Notes under the pieces: generated by a model
The model's database searches: none
Told to the model about the DNA's origin: nothing
What the model saw: only the letters and a program-made list of their open reading frames with translations
Shown here: piece after piece, positions 1 to 6,398 of the stretch
Layout of the letters: each line of letters begins with the position of its first letter
How positions within the stretch are numbered: position 1 is the stretch's first letter
Assembly: GCA_030037185.1 (NCBI GenBank)
Contig: JASHRR010000058.1
Coordinates: 1 to 6,398, forward strand
Source of the DNA: Xanthobacteraceae bacterium
GTDB taxonomy: Bacteria > Pseudomonadota > Alphaproteobacteria > Rhizobiales > Xanthobacteraceae
Reading direction: 5' to 3'
DNA length: 6,398 bases
Program-made: the position numbers and the translations under genes

Positions 1-1152
1 CAAGATCGTCTCGGCAGAAGCAAGCTCGCCCTCGGCTTGCGAAACCTTAGCTTCGATGTCGCTGCGTCGACCCGCGCTCTCTTCCGCCTCGCTCCGGAGC
101 GTCTTTTCCTCGGTGGTAAGGCGCGCCAGCGCGGCTTCAGCATCTGCGGCAAGTGCCTGCTCTCGTTCGCTGTCGGTGACGAGCTGCGTCAGCTGCAAGG
201 CGAGTTCGGCAAGCCGATCCTTGGTGCGCTCTTCCTCGCGGTCGAGCTCCTGCCTGGCAACATTGAGCCGATGCACCGTGGCCCCGGCGCGCGCTTCTGC
301 CTCGCGCAGGCTGGGTAGCTCCGCCGCGACCAGCGCCTGGCGCTTGGAGGCTTCCGCCTCTGTTGCGGTGCGCTGCGCAACGGAACGCAGGCACAGGTCT
401 TTTGCGTGTTGGGCTTCGGCCACCTCAACTTTCGCCGCCGTCCACCGCACGTGATAAAGCGTTGCCTCGCACTTGCGCACTTCGGCAGAGACCGCGCGAT
501 ACCGCGCTGCCTCCCGCGCTCGTTTCTTCAACTCGTCCACCTGGTCGGCGAGTTGGCCGATGACGTCTTCGAGGCGCAAGAGGTTGGCTTCCGTCGCTTT
601 GATGCGTAGTTCGGCCTCGTAGCGACGCGCGCGTAGGCCAGCAACGCCGGCCGCTTCCTCCAGCACGTGGCGGCGCTGCTCAGGCTTGGCCTGGATGATT
701 TCACCGATACGCCCCTGGTGCACCAGCGCCGGCGATCGTGCCCCGGTGCAGGCGTCGGCGAACACCACTTGCACGTCGTGGGCGCGTACCTCGCGGCTAT
801 TGATGCTGTAGGTAGAGCCGCCCTCGCGGTCGATGCGGCGCGCGATCTCGAGAGTGTCAGAGTCGTTGAAAGCGGCCGGCGCGGAACGATCAGAATTGTC
901 AATCCGGACCGCTACCTCGGCGTTGTTGCGGGCTGCACGGCTGCTCGAGCCGGAGAAAATCACATCATCCATGGAGGAGGCCCGCATCGATTTGAACGAG
1001 GATTCGCCCATGACCCACTTGATCGCTTCAACCAGGTTTGATTTGCCACAGCCATTCGGCCCGACCACGCCGGTGAGCCCTGGCTCTATAAGGAAATCGG
1101 TCGGATCGGCGAATGACTTGAATCCGACCAAACGCAACTGCGTAAGCTTCAT
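1..1152 (-). CDS. smc: SMC chromosome-segregation ATPase, N-terminal part (runs off the left edge)
   Basis: This is the first 384 residues of an SMC protein. The frame is open to base 1, so the C-terminal part (hinge, returning coil, Walker B/signature head) lies outside. SMC dimers form the core of bacterial condensin and organise and segregate DNA using ATP. Visible parts: the N-terminal head strand with FKSF at about residues 11-14, Walker A GPNGCGKSN at 31-39, an R-loop-like segment with Arg57, MDDVIFSGS at 61-69, and the Q-loop region LVHQGRIGEII at 143-153. EAAGVAGLRARR at 166-177 marks the exit from the head. From about residue 178 on, the chain is rich in Ala, Glu, Arg, Leu and Gln, as expected for the ascending coiled coil. 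The ATG is preceded by GAGG about 8 nt upstream. Family identity is near certain. Whether it is the organism's only SMC is unknown. The stretch looks GC-richer than the genes to its right. A fluoride riboswitch and terminators lie upstream on the same strand. Confidence 0.95.
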   Translation of the reverse strand, partial: MKLTQLRLVGFKSFADPTDFLIEPGLTGVVGPNGCGKSNLVEAIKWVMGESSFKSMRASSMDDVIFSGSSSRAARNNAEVAVRIDNSDRSAPAAFNDSDTLEIARRIDREGGSTYSINSREVRAHDVQVVFADACTGARSPALVHQGRIGEIIQAKPEQRRHVLEEAAGVAGLRARRYEAELRIKATEANLLRLEDVIGQLADQVDELKKRAREAARYRAVSAEVRKCEATLYHVRWTAAKVEVAEAQHAKDLCLRSVAQRTATEAEASKRQALVAAELPSLREAEARAGATVHRLNVARQELDREEERTKDRLAELALQLTQLVTDSEREQALAADAEAALARLTTEEKTLRSEAEESAGRRSDIEAKVSQAEGELASAETIL

Positions 1153-1353
1153 GCTGCTTGCCTCGGAGGCTTCCTACCGCGTTCGCCGGCCGATGGCTGA
1201 CATCGACCACACGAGCGCCGGTTGGGCCCATCTTTCTTTCGAGGCGGATATGCGTGGGAACTTTCGCCCGATCGCTGATCGAGCGTTGCCTTACGTGCGA
1301 GGGATAAGCAATCGCATGGCGACGCTCTCCAACGATGGCTCTCAGCCAGCGGC

Positions 1354-1379
1354 AAACAAAACCCACCTTTCGGTGGGTT
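1354..1379 (-). terminator. Second rho-independent terminator in the smc leader
   Basis: On the minus strand AACCCACC (1379-1372) pairs perfectly with GGTGGGTT (1367-1360) around a GAAA tetraloop. It is followed by a T-rich run (TTTTGTTT, overlapping the stem end). This is a textbook intrinsic terminator in the minus direction. It lies about 10 nt past the riboswitch's own terminator hairpin and about 200 nt before the smc start, so transcripts reaching smc from the riboswitch promoter must pass two terminators. It could instead be a general stop for readthrough from the genes to the right. Confidence 0.75.
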
Positions 1380-1380
1380 C

Positions 1381-1418
1381 CGAAAATGACCCCACCGCGA
1401 CTATCCGCGGTAGGAGTC
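1381..1418 (-). terminator. Riboswitch expression-platform terminator, mutually exclusive with the aptamer
   Basis: GACTCC-T-ACCGCG (1418-1406) can pair with CGCGGT-GGGGTC (1399-1388): 12 base pairs including one G·T, with one bulged T and a GATAGT loop. ATTTTCG follows. The 5' arm begins with the GACTCC that forms the aptamer pseudoknot, so aptamer and terminator cannot both form. Fluoride riboswitches are known as ON switches in which bound fluoride blocks a terminator, and this geometry fits. The T run is short (four), so termination may be incomplete. Confidence 0.75.
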
Positions 1419-1454
1419 ATCAGCCTTTCGGCACGTTAGGGCGACTCCATGCCC
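1410..1454 (-). ncRNA. Fluoride riboswitch (crcB RNA motif) upstream of smc
   Basis: The minus strand matches the fluoride aptamer layout. Stem GGGC (1454-1451)/GCCC (1442-1439) closes the 8-nt loop ATGGAGTC. A TAACG linker follows, then stem GCC/GGC (1432-1430/1425-1423) with a GAAA loop, then the conserved TGATGACTCCTAC end (1422-1410). The loop GGAGTC is perfectly complementary to GACTCC (1418-1413), giving the defining pseudoknot. A terminator overlapping the 3' arm follows. Known role: binds fluoride (through Mg2+) and turns on downstream genes. The first gene downstream on the strand is smc, about 260 nt away, which is an unusual target. The core 15 nt are identical to the second aptamer at 4057-4105. 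Confidence 0.9.
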
Positions 1455-1461
1455 GATTCGC

Positions 1462-1489
1462 ACGCTATCAAATTCGACTTAATCGTCAA
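1462..1489 (-). promoter_or_regulatory. Candidate promoter of the smc-side fluoride riboswitch
   Basis: On the minus strand TTGACG (1489-1484) is followed after 16 nt by TAGCGT (1467-1462). The -35 matches the housekeeping consensus at 5 of 6 positions. The -10 is poor (3 of 6). The predicted start falls near 1455, immediately before the first aptamer stem, which supports a dedicated promoter between the 145-aa gene and the aptamer. Inferred from position and consensus only. Confidence 0.4.
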
Positions 1490-1519: not shown

Positions 1520-1957
1520 CTAAGGCGAAATCGGCCTTGTACTGTAGCAGATCGTCATCATATCAGCGGCGATCCGGCTTAACTCGTCAATGAGGCGCGT
1601 GATTTCGATTGCACCTTCAGGGCTGAGCGCACCATACCCACTCAAGTCTCTCGAGGACATTTCATCCAACGATATCTGCACGAACTCGATCGCGGTCTTG
1701 ATGGCAACGAGCGCGCTCGTTGAAGGTTTGACTCCAATCTGTTGCCGTACGAGGAAAAGTCGCAACACATCGCGAAAGCGCGCAATTTGCTCTCTCAGGG
1801 CAAGTTGCTGGCCTGTCGGGACGTCCAGCACATATTCGGGGCACAGTGCTCGAGCGTTCGCTTCGTCGGTCGTGGCCCTCAATGCGTTCTCCAGACTATG
1901 ATCCATATACTTGAAAGTTGCAAGCAGATGACGGGTTTGCGCCTCATTGAAGATCAT
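1520..1957 (-). CDS. Uncharacterised helical 145-aa protein
   Basis: I do not recognise a named family. The protein has 145 residues, is probably cytosolic (no signal peptide or membrane segment), and looks largely alpha-helical. Charged and hydrophobic residues alternate: an N-terminal helix (about 4-30), ALREQIARFRDVLRLFLVRQ (about 53-72), a helix around SALVAIKTAIEFVQISLDEM (about 81-100), a short GYGALSP turn (about 107-113), and a final helix EITRLIDELSRIAADMM. A strong Shine-Dalgarno, GGGAGGG (1969-1963), sits 5 nt before the ATG and decides the start. Codon use and the good ribosome site support a real gene. It lies between the usp gene (305-nt gap) and the smc-side riboswitch, so it may belong to the same stress region. 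That is a positional inference, not a function. Confidence 0.8.
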   Translation of the reverse strand: MIFNEAQTRHLLATFKYMDHSLENALRATTDEANARALCPEYVLDVPTGQQLALREQIARFRDVLRLFLVRQQIGVKPSTSALVAIKTAIEFVQISLDEMSSRDLSGYGALSPEGAIEITRLIDELSRIAADMMTICYSTRPISP

Positions 1958-2262: not shown

Positions 2263-2281
2263 TCACTTCGCAATGAGCACC
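2258..2281 (-). terminator. Hairpin across the usp stop codon
   Basis: GGTGCTCA and TGAGCACC form a perfect 8-bp inverted repeat with an 8-nt loop. It includes the usp stop codon (2263-2265) and its last sense codons. On the minus strand no T run follows (TGACAATTGG), so it is not a standard intrinsic terminator. It may protect the 3' end or assist a factor-dependent stop. Confidence 0.35.
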
Positions 2282-2682
2282 GGACATGGAGCCAAGTTAA
2301 CGAGCCGGTCAGCGCGGCTGCCGATGAGCCTCTCGTACAGTGCTGAATGGCCTCGGGCGCCGATAACCAGTAGGTCCGCCTCAAGCTCGGTGGCAAGCTG
2401 GACGATATCGCGTACGGGGTGGCCTGCAACCACATGGGTGCGAAGCTTCACGTGGCGTTCCTCCGCCATCGCCCGGGCACGGTGAATGACATTGTGGAAG
2501 CGGCGGGCACCACTACCGGTTTCTTCTCTTACTTCTTCGATGAATTCAGGCATGTAGTCGATCTCTTCCACCGAGACCATGTGAAGCTCGGAATCATTCT
2601 GCTGAGCGATTGCCAGTGCGAGTGACAACGCATGGAACGCGGATTCAGAGCCGTCATTAGCATGCAGAATCTTGCTGAACAT
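2263..2682 (-). CDS. Universal stress protein, UspA family
   Basis: A single-domain UspA protein of 139 residues, the usual length. It starts MFSKILHANDGSESA, the first strand and Asp (residue 10) of the nucleotide-binding fold. Near the C-terminus it carries the ATP-binding pattern G-x2-G-x9-G-S: Gly108, Gly111, Gly121, Ser122 (GARGHSALYERLIGS). It ends in the last strand APCPVLIAK. The family consists of cytosolic dimeric proteins that raise survival under varied stresses, and those with this motif usually bind ATP. The chosen ATG has GGAG 7 nt upstream. An in-frame extension to 2805 exists but would overlap the antiporter gene. The gap to the antiporter stop is 52 nt on the same strand, so the two are probably cotranscribed from the fluoride-riboswitch leader. 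Usp genes are known neighbours of fluoride riboswitches. Confidence 0.95.
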   Translation of the reverse strand: MFSKILHANDGSESAFHALSLALAIAQQNDSELHMVSVEEIDYMPEFIEEVREETGSGARRFHNVIHRARAMAEERHVKLRTHVVAGHPVRDIVQLATELEADLLVIGARGHSALYERLIGSRADRLVNLAPCPVLIAK

Positions 2683-2734: not shown

Positions 2735-3919
2735 TCACGTCGGTTCGACCAGCTCTCTCGCGGACCCGGCTTGGGGCATGAGGTGCTGCGGAAGATAGTA
2801 AGCATTGGCGATGACCGTCGGAATCACGGCGGTCGCAATGACAGCGGCCACCAACGCCGAGTATTGACCCTGATTGATAATATCGTGGGACAAGCCGAAC
2901 AGGGCTGAGATCGTGCCGAAGGTGAGGCCCGTCGACATCAGGAGGGTGGTGTACATGGCCTCGTTGTGTCGCGAACCGAATTGCTTTGTCAGGGGATAAA
3001 CGCCGACGATCTTCGTGACGACTTTGACGACGAGAAAGAAAATAAAGGCCGCGGGCGCCGCAATCAGGGCCGGCACGGAGACGAACGACCCCGCGCGGAT
3101 GAAGTAGAACGGCGTCAGCAGTCCGAACGTGAGTGTGCGCAATCGTCTGACCAGGGCATGGTCCTTTCCTACAGTGCCGGCGAGAACCATTCCGATGAGA
3201 TAAGCTGGAAGCACGGCCTCGCTGTCGGCCCAAGTGGCAAGCGCTCCCATGCCAAGGAGACACAGAAGGAGAAATTTCGTTTCCATTTCAGAGGGTCGCT
3301 TGCCGTATAGTCTGAAAAAGTGCCGCGTGAGCCAGGGAAGAACCGCAAAAACCAACACGCCAGCAACAGCGAAGATCACCGTCTTCATTGTGAAGGGAGC
3401 AAAGATGAGCCCAAGCGCAACGACGGTGCCGAGATCGGTGACAAAGCACGCCGCCAAGATAGTCTTGCCATATTCGGTCGTATTGAAGCCGAATTCGATC
3501 ATCACAGCGTACACGACGGCTACCGAAGTTGTCGACATAGCGACGCCGGCAAGCCAACTTGCCATCAAGTCCCATCCAAGCAGAAAATGAGCGGCCCCGG
3601 CGCACCCTAGGAAGGGAAGAAAGAAGCTCCCGAGCCCAACGGCGGCCGCTTCTTTCCACTTTAGCCTGAAAACCTCCGGATCGAGCTCCGCGCCGGCCAG
3701 GAAGGTCAGGACTATAGCAGCAATACCGGCCAGGAATTTGACCCAAGACTCATCGGTGCCTAGCACGGACGAGCCGACCGCACCGCCGACAATCAATTGC
3801 GCGACCGTCCCGACGACGATCTCCGACAATGCGGTCGAGATGCGGAGCCAGACCGATAGCAGGCCCGCGATTATAGCGAGGCCTAACCACAACGTCGCAA
3901 GCGTCCAAACGTTCGTCAT
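2735..3919 (-). CDS. CPA2-type cation:proton antiporter (Na+/H+ exchanger family)
   Basis: 394 residues with about 11-13 hydrophobic membrane segments, the length of a core exchanger domain with no C-terminal nucleotide-binding (TrkA-N) domain such as KefB/KefC carry. Marks of the family: an N-terminal segment followed by SEIVVGTVAQLIVGG (about 32-46), FLAGAELDPEVF (73-84), the unwound-helix region STTSVAVVYAVM (129-140), the ion-site segment ACFVTDLGTVVALG (157-170), PFYFIRAGSFV (270-280), and lysines at 299 and 303 in the helix near the ion site. At the position where electrogenic relatives have Asp-Asp, this protein reads Thr161-Asp162. The ATG is set by GGAGG 7 nt upstream (in CTTGGAGGCTTG). 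An upstream in-frame ATG at 3973 has no such site and lies in the leader hairpin. It is the first gene after the fluoride riboswitch and is followed 52 nt later by usp. The substrate (Na+, K+ or another ion) cannot be read from sequence. Confidence 0.93.
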   Translation of the reverse strand: MTNVWTLATLWLGLAIIAGLLSVWLRISTALSEIVVGTVAQLIVGGAVGSSVLGTDESWVKFLAGIAAIVLTFLAGAELDPEVFRLKWKEAAAVGLGSFFLPFLGCAGAAHFLLGWDLMASWLAGVAMSTTSVAVVYAVMIEFGFNTTEYGKTILAACFVTDLGTVVALGLIFAPFTMKTVIFAVAGVLVFAVLPWLTRHFFRLYGKRPSEMETKFLLLCLLGMGALATWADSEAVLPAYLIGMVLAGTVGKDHALVRRLRTLTFGLLTPFYFIRAGSFVSVPALIAAPAAFIFFLVVKVVTKIVGVYPLTKQFGSRHNEAMYTTLLMSTGLTFGTISALFGLSHDIINQGQYSALVAAVIATAVIPTVIANAYYLPQHLMPQAGSARELVEPT

Positions 3920-4034: not shown

Positions 4035-4064
4035 CTCCTACCGACGCCAAGCGCCCGGCAGGAG
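4035..4064 (-). promoter_or_regulatory. Alternative hairpin competing with the fluoride aptamer (antiporter side)
   Basis: CTCCTGCCG (4064-4056) pairs over 9 bp, with one G·T, to CGGTAGGAG (4043-4035). A short inner stem (GCGC/GCGT) fits inside. The 5' arm overlaps the GACTCC pseudoknot arm of the aptamer, so the two structures exclude each other. Only a weak pyrimidine run (ACTTCCTTTG) follows. It is either a modest terminator or an arm of a multi-step switch. Confidence 0.6.
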
Positions 4065-4105
4065 TCATCAGCCTCATCGGCGGTTGCGGGGGGACCCCTT
4101 CCCTC
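4057..4105 (-). ncRNA. Fluoride riboswitch (crcB RNA motif) upstream of the antiporter-usp operon
   Basis: Minus-strand layout: stem GAGGG (4105-4101)/CCCCC (4092-4088), with one A·C mismatch, closes the 8-nt loop AAGGGGTC. GCAACC follows, then stem GCC/GGC (4081-4079/4073-4071) around GATGA, then TGATGACTCCTGCC (4070-4057). The loop GGGGTC pairs with GACTCC (4066-4061) with one G·U, giving the pseudoknot. The AACCGCC linker and GGCTGATGACTCCT end are close to the known consensus. The antiporter ATG lies about 140 nt downstream. Na+/H+ antiporters are known members of fluoride-riboswitch regulons, which supports both the RNA call and a fluoride-induced operon. Confidence 0.9.
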
Positions 4106-4353
4106 TCGTGTGAATTTATTTAGGGCAATAATTCTACGAAAGCAAGACTCGATTGGTTAGTGTTGGTCATGGGGGAATGCTTCATACGTTTAAGAGCCTG
4201 ACGGCGGTATAAAGCACATTTCTCCACGAACCAGGATGCGCCGACGCAGTGCTCGTCAGGAACCACGTCGGCGTAGCAGTAGGGCCAGGATTGTGGTGCG
4301 AAAGTTGCCGAGTTAACACTCGCGCCGTGCTATCATGTCGCGCTCAAATTTCG
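4106..4353. other. Gap between the ATPase gene and the antiporter riboswitch
   Basis: About 250 nt with no supportable gene. It holds a perfect 8-bp inverted repeat CGCCGACG/CGTCGGCG (4239-4246 and 4266-4273) with a 19-nt spacer. A short CGAGT/ACTCG hairpin lies nearer the ATPase stop. Neither is followed by a T run. The left end holds the candidate promoter of the antiporter leader. Confidence 0.5.
4131..4136 (-). promoter_or_regulatory. Candidate -10 of the antiporter-usp operon
   Basis: TAGAAT on the minus strand matches TATAAT at 5 of 6 positions and lies about 25 nt upstream of the first aptamer stem. No strong -35 is visible at 16-18 nt. An alternative pair, TTGCTT with TAAATA 17 nt apart, lies slightly downstream. 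Either would start the transcript just before the aptamer. Confidence 0.3.
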
Positions 4354-6398
4354 TCAATTGACCTTCTTGCGTCCCCGCGCATTGCGTTTCGTCGCGGGAA
4401 ACTCGACCGCCTTGCGTTTTGCCCATGCTGCCAATCCCTCATCGTTTATAGCTTCTGCCGCTTCCGCTGCACGCCCAAAGTATATTTGGCTGCGAAAACG
4501 GCGAGCAAGTGCGACCCACGCATAAGGAAGGTCGTTAAAACTAACGCTCGGCGCGTCGTCCAGGTTTCGCTCTTCCGCGATTGCATAGATTTCGTTATCA
4601 TCTTCAATGGTTTTGCGCGCGCGGCGACGGCATTGGTCGAGCCGACGGCTGATCTCATCAGCACGCCAGGGCCTTGCTGTCGCATAAGCCAGTTCATAGA
4701 ATTCTTGAGCCTGAGACCAATTAAAAACCTGAAAAAGGGCGTCTCCGGTTCGTTCTGCCTGTCGAGAGATATCTTCATTGCCGACCGAGGATCCAGTAAC
4801 TCGAGACCTGATGTCCGTGAGAATTTGATCGGCGCTACCAAGCGCGAGGCGGTCGATTGCTTCTCGCAACCGGCTTGACCTGGGTCGCGGTCGGCCCGCG
4901 AGCATACTGGTGATGAAAATCTCATAGTCGAGGCGCTCCAGCTGAGCAAGATGATGCGCCGCCTCGACCCGATCCGCGTAATCTCCTGTCTCGAGTCGAT
5001 CCAGCCAGAGACCGACCTGAGTTTCAAGTTGGTCCAGATCGTCGTTGACTGTCTGTCGCTCCCAAGACCGCCCCCAGCGCAAGCGCTGCCGGATCTCCGC
5101 GATACGGGCGTGTAATAAATTTGCGATCCGCGCGGCAACGAGTTGATGGAGGCTGCGCGGACCGGTTTCGTCGCCTTGATAGCTTGTCTCAGCCGCCCAA
5201 GCAGCAAATTGCTCGATGAACAGCGGATTACCTTTCGAGCGCACCGCCGCGACGGCCGCAACCGAATCGGATTTGATCAATCGCGTGGCCAGCTCTTTGG
5301 CGCGGGATGCCCGGAGCGGCTGCAATGTAAGTTCAACAGCAGGTTGCAACGTGTCTAACGCCTGCCGGGCGCTCGGGCGCGATGCCAAAATGACAAACGT
5401 CGTAGCATGCACGGCAGCTATGAGAGCATGAACAAAGGCGAGTCCCGCAGCGCCCGCCCAGTGAATATCGTCTAGCACCAAAAGGTCGAATTTTTCTTTG
5501 CGGATACGATCAACAACCGCTTGCGTGAATGTGCGAGGATCAGGCTGATCGGAAGGGAGGTCTGCGAGCTGGCCGGCAAAGTCTTCGCAATCTCCGCCGA
5601 ACATGCTAAAACTCGCGGTGATTGCCCGCAGTTCTGGATGCCTTGCTAACCATTCCTTTATCAGGCGAGTCTTACCTGATCCCGGCTTCGCGACGATCGC
5701 CAAGGTGACCTTTGTGGTGCATTTCCAGCAATCCTCGATCCGGGAGAGCTGATGCTCCCTGCCTACGAACGGACTTCGGTGTCCAATCTCGTCGTGATCC
5801 AAGGCAGACGGGCGTTTGTGACCAATCATGCGATATTGATACTCCTCGCTTCCGTCGAGGAAGCGACGCGGGGCGCCCACAAAGTACTCCCGATGACGGT
5901 TACTCCGATAAATAATCTCCGGCGAGAGCAGCATGTTGTCAGGTTCGAATTTGAAGATCGCGCGCGCCGTGGGGCCGCGGATCATCGGATGGCCCCGCCG
6001 ATCGAATGAGAGGACGTACTGATCGGTCCAAATACCCCAACGAATGTTGGCGTCACGCCCAAAGATGCGTTCGAGTCGCGGCAGCGAAGCGACGACCTGA
6101 CGCTCGAGATCGCATGCGCGACGAAAGGCTGTTCGCAGCCCTTCCTGGGTCCAGGCAAGCCAGCCATGCTCGGCTACTCCGCATGTCGCGGTGCCAAATA
6201 TAGCCGCAAGAATCTTCTCGATGACACTGATCGACTCGAGGAGGTCCTTGCCGGCAGGAGGACGAGCGTGCACAAGGCGCAAAACCAGCGCGCTCGCACC
6301 GACAAGCTCGTATCGTTTCGATCCGGCCGCCGGGCAACGAGCATTGGTTGGCACGAGCTGCCATTCGGTCCGCCCCAGAGGTTGTTCACCGAGCCAAT
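4354..6398 (-). CDS. Degenerate cyclase-like / P-loop predicted ATPase, C-terminal part (runs off the right edge)
   Basis: The frame is open to the right edge, so the N-terminus is missing. A GTG at 6354 is in frame but there is no stop before the edge. Residues are counted from that GTG. About 14-180 resembles a class III nucleotide-cyclase homology region (IRWGIWTDQYV near 104-114, then TARAIF and LLSPEIIYRS), but the metal-binding Asp pattern is not recognisable, so it is probably inactive. FVGREHQL at 196-203 opens a STAND/AAA-type NTPase. Walker A is AKPGSGKT (222-229), Walker B is DLLVLDDIHWAG (290-301), a sensor-like strand is TFVILASRPS (319-328), and GNPLFIEQF lies at 375-383. Residues about 400-650 are helical and charged, perhaps TPR-like, and the end is basic (RNARGRKKVN). 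Such cyclase-ATPase-repeat proteins are thought to be signalling or regulatory switches. No DNA-binding domain is seen in this part. The stop is 434 nt before the antiporter. Confidence 0.88.
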   Translation of the reverse strand, partial: WLGEQPLGRTEWQLVPTNARCPAAGSKRYELVGASALVLRLVHARPPAGKDLLESISVIEKILAAIFGTATCGVAEHGWLAWTQEGLRTAFRRACDLERQVVASLPRLERIFGRDANIRWGIWTDQYVLSFDRRGHPMIRGPTARAIFKFEPDNMLLSPEIIYRSNRHREYFVGAPRRFLDGSEEYQYRMIGHKRPSALDHDEIGHRSPFVGREHQLSRIEDCWKCTTKVTLAIVAKPGSGKTRLIKEWLARHPELRAITASFSMFGGDCEDFAGQLADLPSDQPDPRTFTQAVVDRIRKEKFDLLVLDDIHWAGAAGLAFVHALIAAVHATTFVILASRPSARQALDTLQPAVELTLQPLRASRAKELATRLIKSDSVAAVAAVRSKGNPLFIEQFAAWAAETSYQGDETGPRSLHQLVAARIANLLHARIAEIRQRLRWGRSWERQTVNDDLDQLETQVGLWLDRLETGDYADRVEAAHHLAQLERLDYEIFITSMLAGRPRPRSSRLREAIDRLALGSADQILTDIRSRVTGSSVGNEDISRQAERTGDALFQVFNWSQAQEFYELAYATARPWRADEISRRLDQCRRRARKTIEDDNEIYAIAEERNLDDAPSVSFNDLPYAWVALARRFRSQIYFGRAAEAAEAINDEGLAAWAKRKAVEFPATKRNARGRKKVN

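Follow-up and report, generated by a model that had tools for sequence, protein, structure and literature searches.

The window, by which we mean the whole 6,398-nt stretch of DNA analyzed here, reads along its minus strand as an AAA_16 ATPase gene, a fluoride aptamer, an antiporter gene, a universal stress protein (Usp) gene, a small gene, another fluoride aptamer and smc. Both aptamers lie on the minus strand and match the Rfam fluoride riboswitch model RF01734 above its gathering score of 34 (cmscan). One of them (4052-4112, 37.5 bits) precedes the genes for an antiporter of the Na_H_Exchanger family (2735-3919, minus strand) and the Usp (2263-2682, minus strand; Pfam Usp, 101 bits). The antiporter has a counterpart with 82% identity that follows a fluoride riboswitch in G001, the genome of Hyphomicrobiales bacterium isolate Centralia_MAG_73, and the AAA_16 ATPase (4354-6396, minus strand), whose gene is open at the window end, shows 58% identity to a gene on the island contig of that genome. 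The small gene (MIFNEAQ..., 1520-1957, minus strand) encodes a product that has no match in Pfam or NCBIfam and is 61% identical to the product of positions 2784-3227 of L014, the smc locus on contig G001:C139. The window is best read as a piece of a fluoride-defence island: two aptamers, the antiporter and Usp are island features that it holds itself, and an extra enolase and FtsH are seen only in the related G001.

The smc-side aptamer (1404-1463, minus strand) scores 38.6 bits (E = 3.9e-8) over model positions 1-64 of 64. Read from the sequence, P1 joins GGGC (1454-1451) to GCCC (1442-1439), the long-range pseudoknot joins GGAGTC (1448-1443) to GACTCC (1418-1413), and P3 joins GCC (1432-1430) to GGC (1425-1423) around a GAAA loop (1429-1426); all three are able to pair, and every pair is Watson-Crick. 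An earlier note on this DNA had described a complete aptamer with this pseudoknot and a GAAA-loop P3 and had named the Rfam fluoride model as a check. The match at 1463-1404, above the gathering score, bears the description out; the span given there ends at 1454, nine bases short of the match. A model of our own, R1, gives the same aptamer 57.4 bits, a score for a sequence that was itself among the 29 aptamers from which R1 was built (both window aptamers and that of L014 included). At 1462-1489 on the minus strand lies a possible leader promoter, TTGACG (1489-1484) and TAGCGT (1467-1462) separated by 16 nt, whose TTGACGAT is shared with L014 in the alignment; a sigma-70 scan did not call it. 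The same scan, which misses other promoter types, found no promoter-like site between 1360 and 1153.

The next gene on the minus strand after this aptamer is smc, as the earlier note had it: the two other minus-strand frames of at least 60 aa between them (1420-1028 and 1355-1149) both overlap the smc start out of frame. What the window contains of smc, which we read as an island-type copy, is its first 384 codons (1-1152, minus strand), stop-free from the ATG at 1152 to the window end. A Shine-Dalgarno-like GAGG (1161-1164, minus strand) precedes the start and is present in 16 of the 19 rows of an upstream alignment. The translation matches Pfam SMC_N with 115 bits and NCBIfam TIGR02168 with 371 bits, below the whole-protein cut-off of 567 because the window holds only a third of the Smc protein; the full-length Smc of L014 reaches 826 bits. 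The Walker A motif, GPNGCGKSN, is intact. The hinge, signature motif and Walker B regions belong to the two thirds of the gene that lie outside the window, and the L014 protein has a hinge match.

Hairpins between the aptamer and smc

Scanning both strands of 1100-1560 revealed two terminator-like hairpins (against a shuffle mean of 0.5, sd 0.8), both on the minus strand, at 1415-1390 and 1386-1367. The first, H2 (1390-1415, minus strand), uses the aptamer 3' strand and is followed by the tail TCATTTTCGG. The second corresponds to H4 (1361-1378, minus strand), in which ACCCACC and GGTGGGT close a GAAA loop ahead of TTTGTTTG; past it, the scan finds no further terminator-like site up to smc. 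A match to sroH at 1382-1358 (E = 0.23, 19 of 80 bits) was set aside as the H4 hairpin itself. Between the two we propose an antiterminator, H3 (1372-1396, minus strand), in which GGTGGG (1396-1391) pairs with CCCACC (1377-1372).

To compare leaders of the same build, we folded 14 of them: that of the window, that of L014 and 12 others chosen by eye. When no base is constrained, H2 takes up the aptamer 3' strand in every leader. The platform is exclusive with the aptamer, as the 5' arm of H2 consists of aptamer 3' bases and folds once these are free. Because a T-rich tail follows H4 in all 14 leaders (weakest in L121) and a run of at least five consecutive T follows H2 in L014 only, we regard H4 as the likely terminator and H2 as an anti-antiterminator; H2 of the window is followed by fewer T in a row (TCATTTTCGG) than that of L014 (TCTTTTTTTG). 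The hairpin at 1415-1390, which the earlier note had taken for a competing terminator, is thus better read as an anti-antiterminator, the working terminator being the second hairpin with its stem at 1378-1361.

We then blocked the first nine bases as a stand-in for fluoride binding. In a transcript that ends at the 5' arm of H4, H3 is at least partly paired in 14 of 14 leaders under this constraint. Once the platform is complete, the lowest-energy blocked fold is H3 in eight leaders and H4 in six, and because the window is among these six, H3 would there have to win by timing. The duplex energy of H3 is reached by 6 of 300 shuffles for the window and by 3 of 300 for L014; both belong to the nine leaders in which H3 stands above shuffled sequence (at most 14 of 300). 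It is weak by this measure in the other five (L107, 40 of 300; L121, 37; L132, 59; L171, 139; L136, 191).

These folds suggest how the leader might work. Without fluoride, the aptamer 3' strand would pass into H2 (1415-1390), H4 (1378-1361) would be free to form, and transcription would halt before smc. With fluoride, the aptamer would retain its 3' strand and the 3' arm of H2 would be freed; that arm could then capture the 5' arm of the still incomplete H4, forming H3 and allowing polymerase to continue into smc. The leader would accordingly act in the ON direction, as modeled, and smc would lie on the leader transcript. With aptamer, pseudoknot, H2 and terminator all intact, the leader looks functional.

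Like other members of RF01734, the leader has a full aptamer, shares the aptamer 3' strand with a downstream hairpin and adjoins defence genes; it differs in having smc as its first downstream gene. Its platform also seems to place an antiterminator after the hairpin that overlaps the aptamer and before the terminator, whereas a 2026 study of whole fluoride riboswitches (PMC13273304) sets aptamer against terminator and does not use the word antiterminator in its main text. If confirmed, the three-helix platform would extend fluoride riboswitches by an antiterminator design; we claim no priority for an antiterminator in fluoride riboswitches, as other open-access papers contain both terms.

A related leader and smc in a fluoride island

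The closest counterpart of this arrangement is L014, whose smc sits inside a fluoride island of G001, a genome with 20 RF01734 matches, all above the cut-off. There, the aptamer (4934-4993) and both hairpins are followed by the gene for MCDYSL (5277-5705), a small protein without match in Pfam or NCBIfam, and then by smc (6001), which is therefore the second gene behind a leader of the window's type. A PAP2 gene and the MIFNEAQ relative lie upstream of smc on this contig; farther downstream, by the crude home-made caller that we used on fetched contigs, come riboswitches, CrcB, a Proton_antipo_M protein, FtsH and the AAA_16 relative. G001 encodes two riboswitch-linked enolases and a third, and two FtsH proteins besides the one on the smc contig (L102 15895-17820).

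The window aligns with L014 over 1507-1239, continuing for about 120 bases after the terminator, and then diverges. Within the post-terminator stretch (1239-1360, minus strand), the departure at 1239 would mark a deletion of MCDYSL. A search of 391 genomes of the family and 397 of the order, in which two candidates were scored for each genome, gave G001:C139 as the only alignment to continue from the aptamer across this stretch; the leader matches of other genomes end at the terminator, apart from one weak 44-base later match in G679 (E = 7.7e-4). On plasmids, the leader finds only two Mesorhizobium records, covering 18% of the query, and a 23-base piece of it has no exact match in viral contigs.

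Fifteen leader matches reach at least 78 bits, one of them G001:C139. Among the other 14, the leader type precedes MCDYSL followed by enolase in four (G210, G233, G226 and G240) and MutS-type genes in seven: pairs in G001:C134, G003, G146 and G175, in G233 the first gene, in G210 a partial match at the start of a contig, and G226:C257, where the assignment rests on reading the translation. One of the remaining matches precedes an antiporter (G058), and two, both in G097, have no assignable gene. The MutS-type gene pairs behind this leader type lie at L107 2918-6213, L212, L215 and L216.

Given the leader-MCDYSL-enolase order in four other genomes, smc of G001 stands in the enolase slot. Of 100 family genomes, 48 contain MCDYSL, and G001 has nine matches to it. 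In the window, tblastn finds nothing meaningful for MCDYSL (best E = 1.3), and its absence places smc first behind the leader. Most simply, leader-MCDYSL would be the older state, from which the window lost MCDYSL; we rejected the converse, an insertion of MCDYSL in L014, since MCDYSL also follows this leader type in the same four genomes.

In ordinary smc loci of the clade, which encode the same Smc family, dsbA lies upstream and lemA and M48 often lie downstream; the window has none of DsbA, LemA, M48 and the usual upstream block. We collected 80 related loci, 79 of which (L036 lacks upstream DNA) could be scored for DsbA and the upstream block. DsbA lies within 1,300 bases upstream of smc in 78 of the 79, the exception being L014. 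At the 36 Pseudolabrys-type loci (L001-L035, L037 and L038, minus L014), the upstream block contains motif A in 33, motif C in 33 and at least one of the two in all 36. Neither motif is present in the window or L014, and DsbA, LemA and M48 have no match in the window or on the L014 contig. The earlier note had proposed comparing smc upstream regions across related genomes for conservation of the aptamer; nearness of riboswitch and smc was tested in the 80 loci, short of all 296 genomes, and R1 (E <= 1e-3) finds the aptamer at L014 and at no other.

The second smc of G001, on contig C192, is normally placed and flanked by DsbA, LemA and M48. At E <= 1e-80, 280 family genomes have an smc match; 279 have a single one and G001 alone has two. 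G001 is a draft bin of uncertain purity; it shows a single RecA above the cut-off and a single rpoC, which gives no sign that two genomes are mixed, two markers being a thin test. Its one ScpA match, to part of the model only, means that the island Smc may share the partners of its host. In the bin Pseudolabrys TGS_PRO23, loci L016 and L017, on two contigs, have identical smc N-terminal sequences and the same neighbours, possibly an assembly duplicate. Smc matches also occur in 43 plasmid records, all below 60% identity; the one such region examined, from a Methylobacterium aquaticum plasmid, has no RF01734 match at gathering.

The smc genes of the window and L014 are probably sisters, a grouping that is supported, not certain. 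A tree of 45 rows (43 of the 80 loci, the window and G001:C192) puts them together at 98/95, on branches of 0.26 and 0.15, and a denser one of 55 rows (the window, 14 loci and 40 of 120 listed proteins, the best 120 of 7,991 matches) does so at 83/89, on branches of 0.41 and 0.14. Since both branches are long, long-branch attraction is possible, and because support fell once nearer proteins were added, we rely on synteny and shared residues as well. Among 153 rows (those shorter than 375 aa excluded), five residues are exclusive to the window and L014, and no other row shares more than two with the window alone. By overall identity, P0007 (78.9%) and L006 (78.6%) lie slightly nearer to the window Smc than L014 does (76.8%). 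Between the window and L014 genes, simple counting gives dN of 0.139 and dS of 1.065, which is near saturation; the resulting dN/dS of about 0.13 indicates that purifying selection acts on both genes, or did so for long.

Both proteins depart from their relatives at conserved positions. Within its 384 residues, the window Smc carries 23 changes at positions that are at least 99% conserved in relatives, which could reflect relaxed constraint. L014 carries 24 at positions with the same conservation in the 120 listed relatives; the only row to match that number is a shorter one, P0081, with 25, and the next has 11. Among the L014 changes is one at residues 1079-1080, where VDAPLD after the Walker B glutamate, present in 120 of 120 listed relatives, has become AEAPLD.

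A probable accessory smc and its alternatives

Smc is usually regarded as a single-copy housekeeping ATPase. We consider it probable that the smc of the window is instead a fluoride-induced accessory copy carried by a fluoride-defence island, a reading that combines a known riboswitch and a known island type with a new cargo. The earlier note had offered fluoride-responsive SMC dosage as one explanation for the coupling. Because this smc lies outside the normal setting and has a probable sister in the island of a two-smc genome, dosage most likely takes the form of an inducible accessory copy, and not of control over an only smc.

Such a copy would top up or replace a housekeeping Smc ATPase inhibited by fluoride, either through metal-fluoride mimics of phosphate or via Mg-ATP. 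We think of it as a backup because islands of this type also carry extra enolase, and in its history smc may have taken the enolase slot behind leader and MCDYSL before the window line lost MCDYSL. Island GI3 of Enterobacter cloacae FRM has riboswitch-controlled uspA and crcB together with additional copies of the fluoride-inhibited enzymes phosphoglycerate mutase, enolase and pyrophosphatase (PMC5533749); G001 differs from it in having 20 riboswitches and genes for Smc, MutS-domain proteins and FtsH. Fluoride is described as an inhibitor of enzymes that depend on metal-ATP complexes (PMC11139923). For SMC ATPases in particular, beryllium fluoride poisons MukBEF in vitro (PMC7617805), and cohesin can be loaded without hydrolysis when ADP is combined with BeF or AlF analogues (PMC6205631). 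In fluoride-resistant Streptococcus mutans, one of the eight SNPs listed in Table 3 of PMC4391945 is a nonsynonymous change in smc, a hint of a link between Smc and fluoride that is suggestive only.

It is possible, if doubtful, that the islands carry a dedicated, fluoride-tolerant Smc, made by way of the riboswitch only under fluoride, which drives chromosome segregation in place of housekeeping Smc trapped on DNA by metal-fluoride complexes. Were this true, the AEAPLD change after Walker B in the G001 copy would be part of the tolerance.

As an alternative to an accessory copy, the island could have landed beside, or been rearranged onto, the sole smc of the genome, with the leader reading into the gene weakly at most, another promoter driving it and the link being accidental. 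The single smc match of 279 of the 280 family genomes fits this account, as does the GC3 of the window smc, 0.73 against 0.59-0.70 for three neighbouring genes. We nevertheless find it unlikely: the leader-smc neighbourhood recurs in a separate assembly that has another smc in the normal setting, neither the window nor L014 shows DsbA or the upstream block, and both smc genes sit on long branches.

More unlikely still is a relic leader, the other explanation put forward in the earlier note, under which the riboswitch has had no useful target since MCDYSL was lost and smc is separately transcribed or decaying. That the usual first gene is missing is correct, and the shorter T run after H2, the 23 changes at conserved Smc positions and the preference of the complete window leader for H4 even with the aptamer strand blocked would all suit such decay. 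However, the short T run is not a sign of it, because L014 is the only one of the 14 leaders with at least five T after H2, and the aptamer with its pseudoknot, H2 and H4 are all intact. The 384 codons are open, with the low dN/dS given above, and the scans find no terminator-like site past H4 and no promoter-like site before smc. The leader is therefore more likely working than a relic.

An assembly chimera that joined an island leader to an unrelated smc is very improbable, even in a window of just 6.4 kb, because L014 comes from a different assembly and shows this leader too, likewise oriented and about 1 kb ahead of a related smc, with an alignment to the window that extends some 120 bases beyond the terminator.

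If smc is indeed an accessory copy, its place in the enolase slot would put chromosome maintenance among the fluoride-sensitive processes for which bacteria keep a backup, and whether Smc is a physiological fluoride target becomes a testable question. We found no paper that couples a fluoride riboswitch to smc or mutS in the open-access literature, the scope of our search, with subscription papers outside it. Baker's gene list of 2012 is said to include mutS. Fluoride riboswitches in Methylobacterium DM4 number near ten. The riboswitch-based regulation of that strain is called extensive in a review (PMC11139923), a point of similarity with the system described here, and the account given there draws no link to smc. 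In the family studied here, most genomes with any fluoride riboswitch show one, in a survey whose per-genome counts are lower bounds (17 candidates scored per genome). Fluoride riboswitches are clustered on few contigs in G001 (20, L101-L107) and on G258:C49 (at least 17, L167-L170). The pairs of MutS-domain genes that follow this leader type, like smc, point to DNA-acting ATPases.
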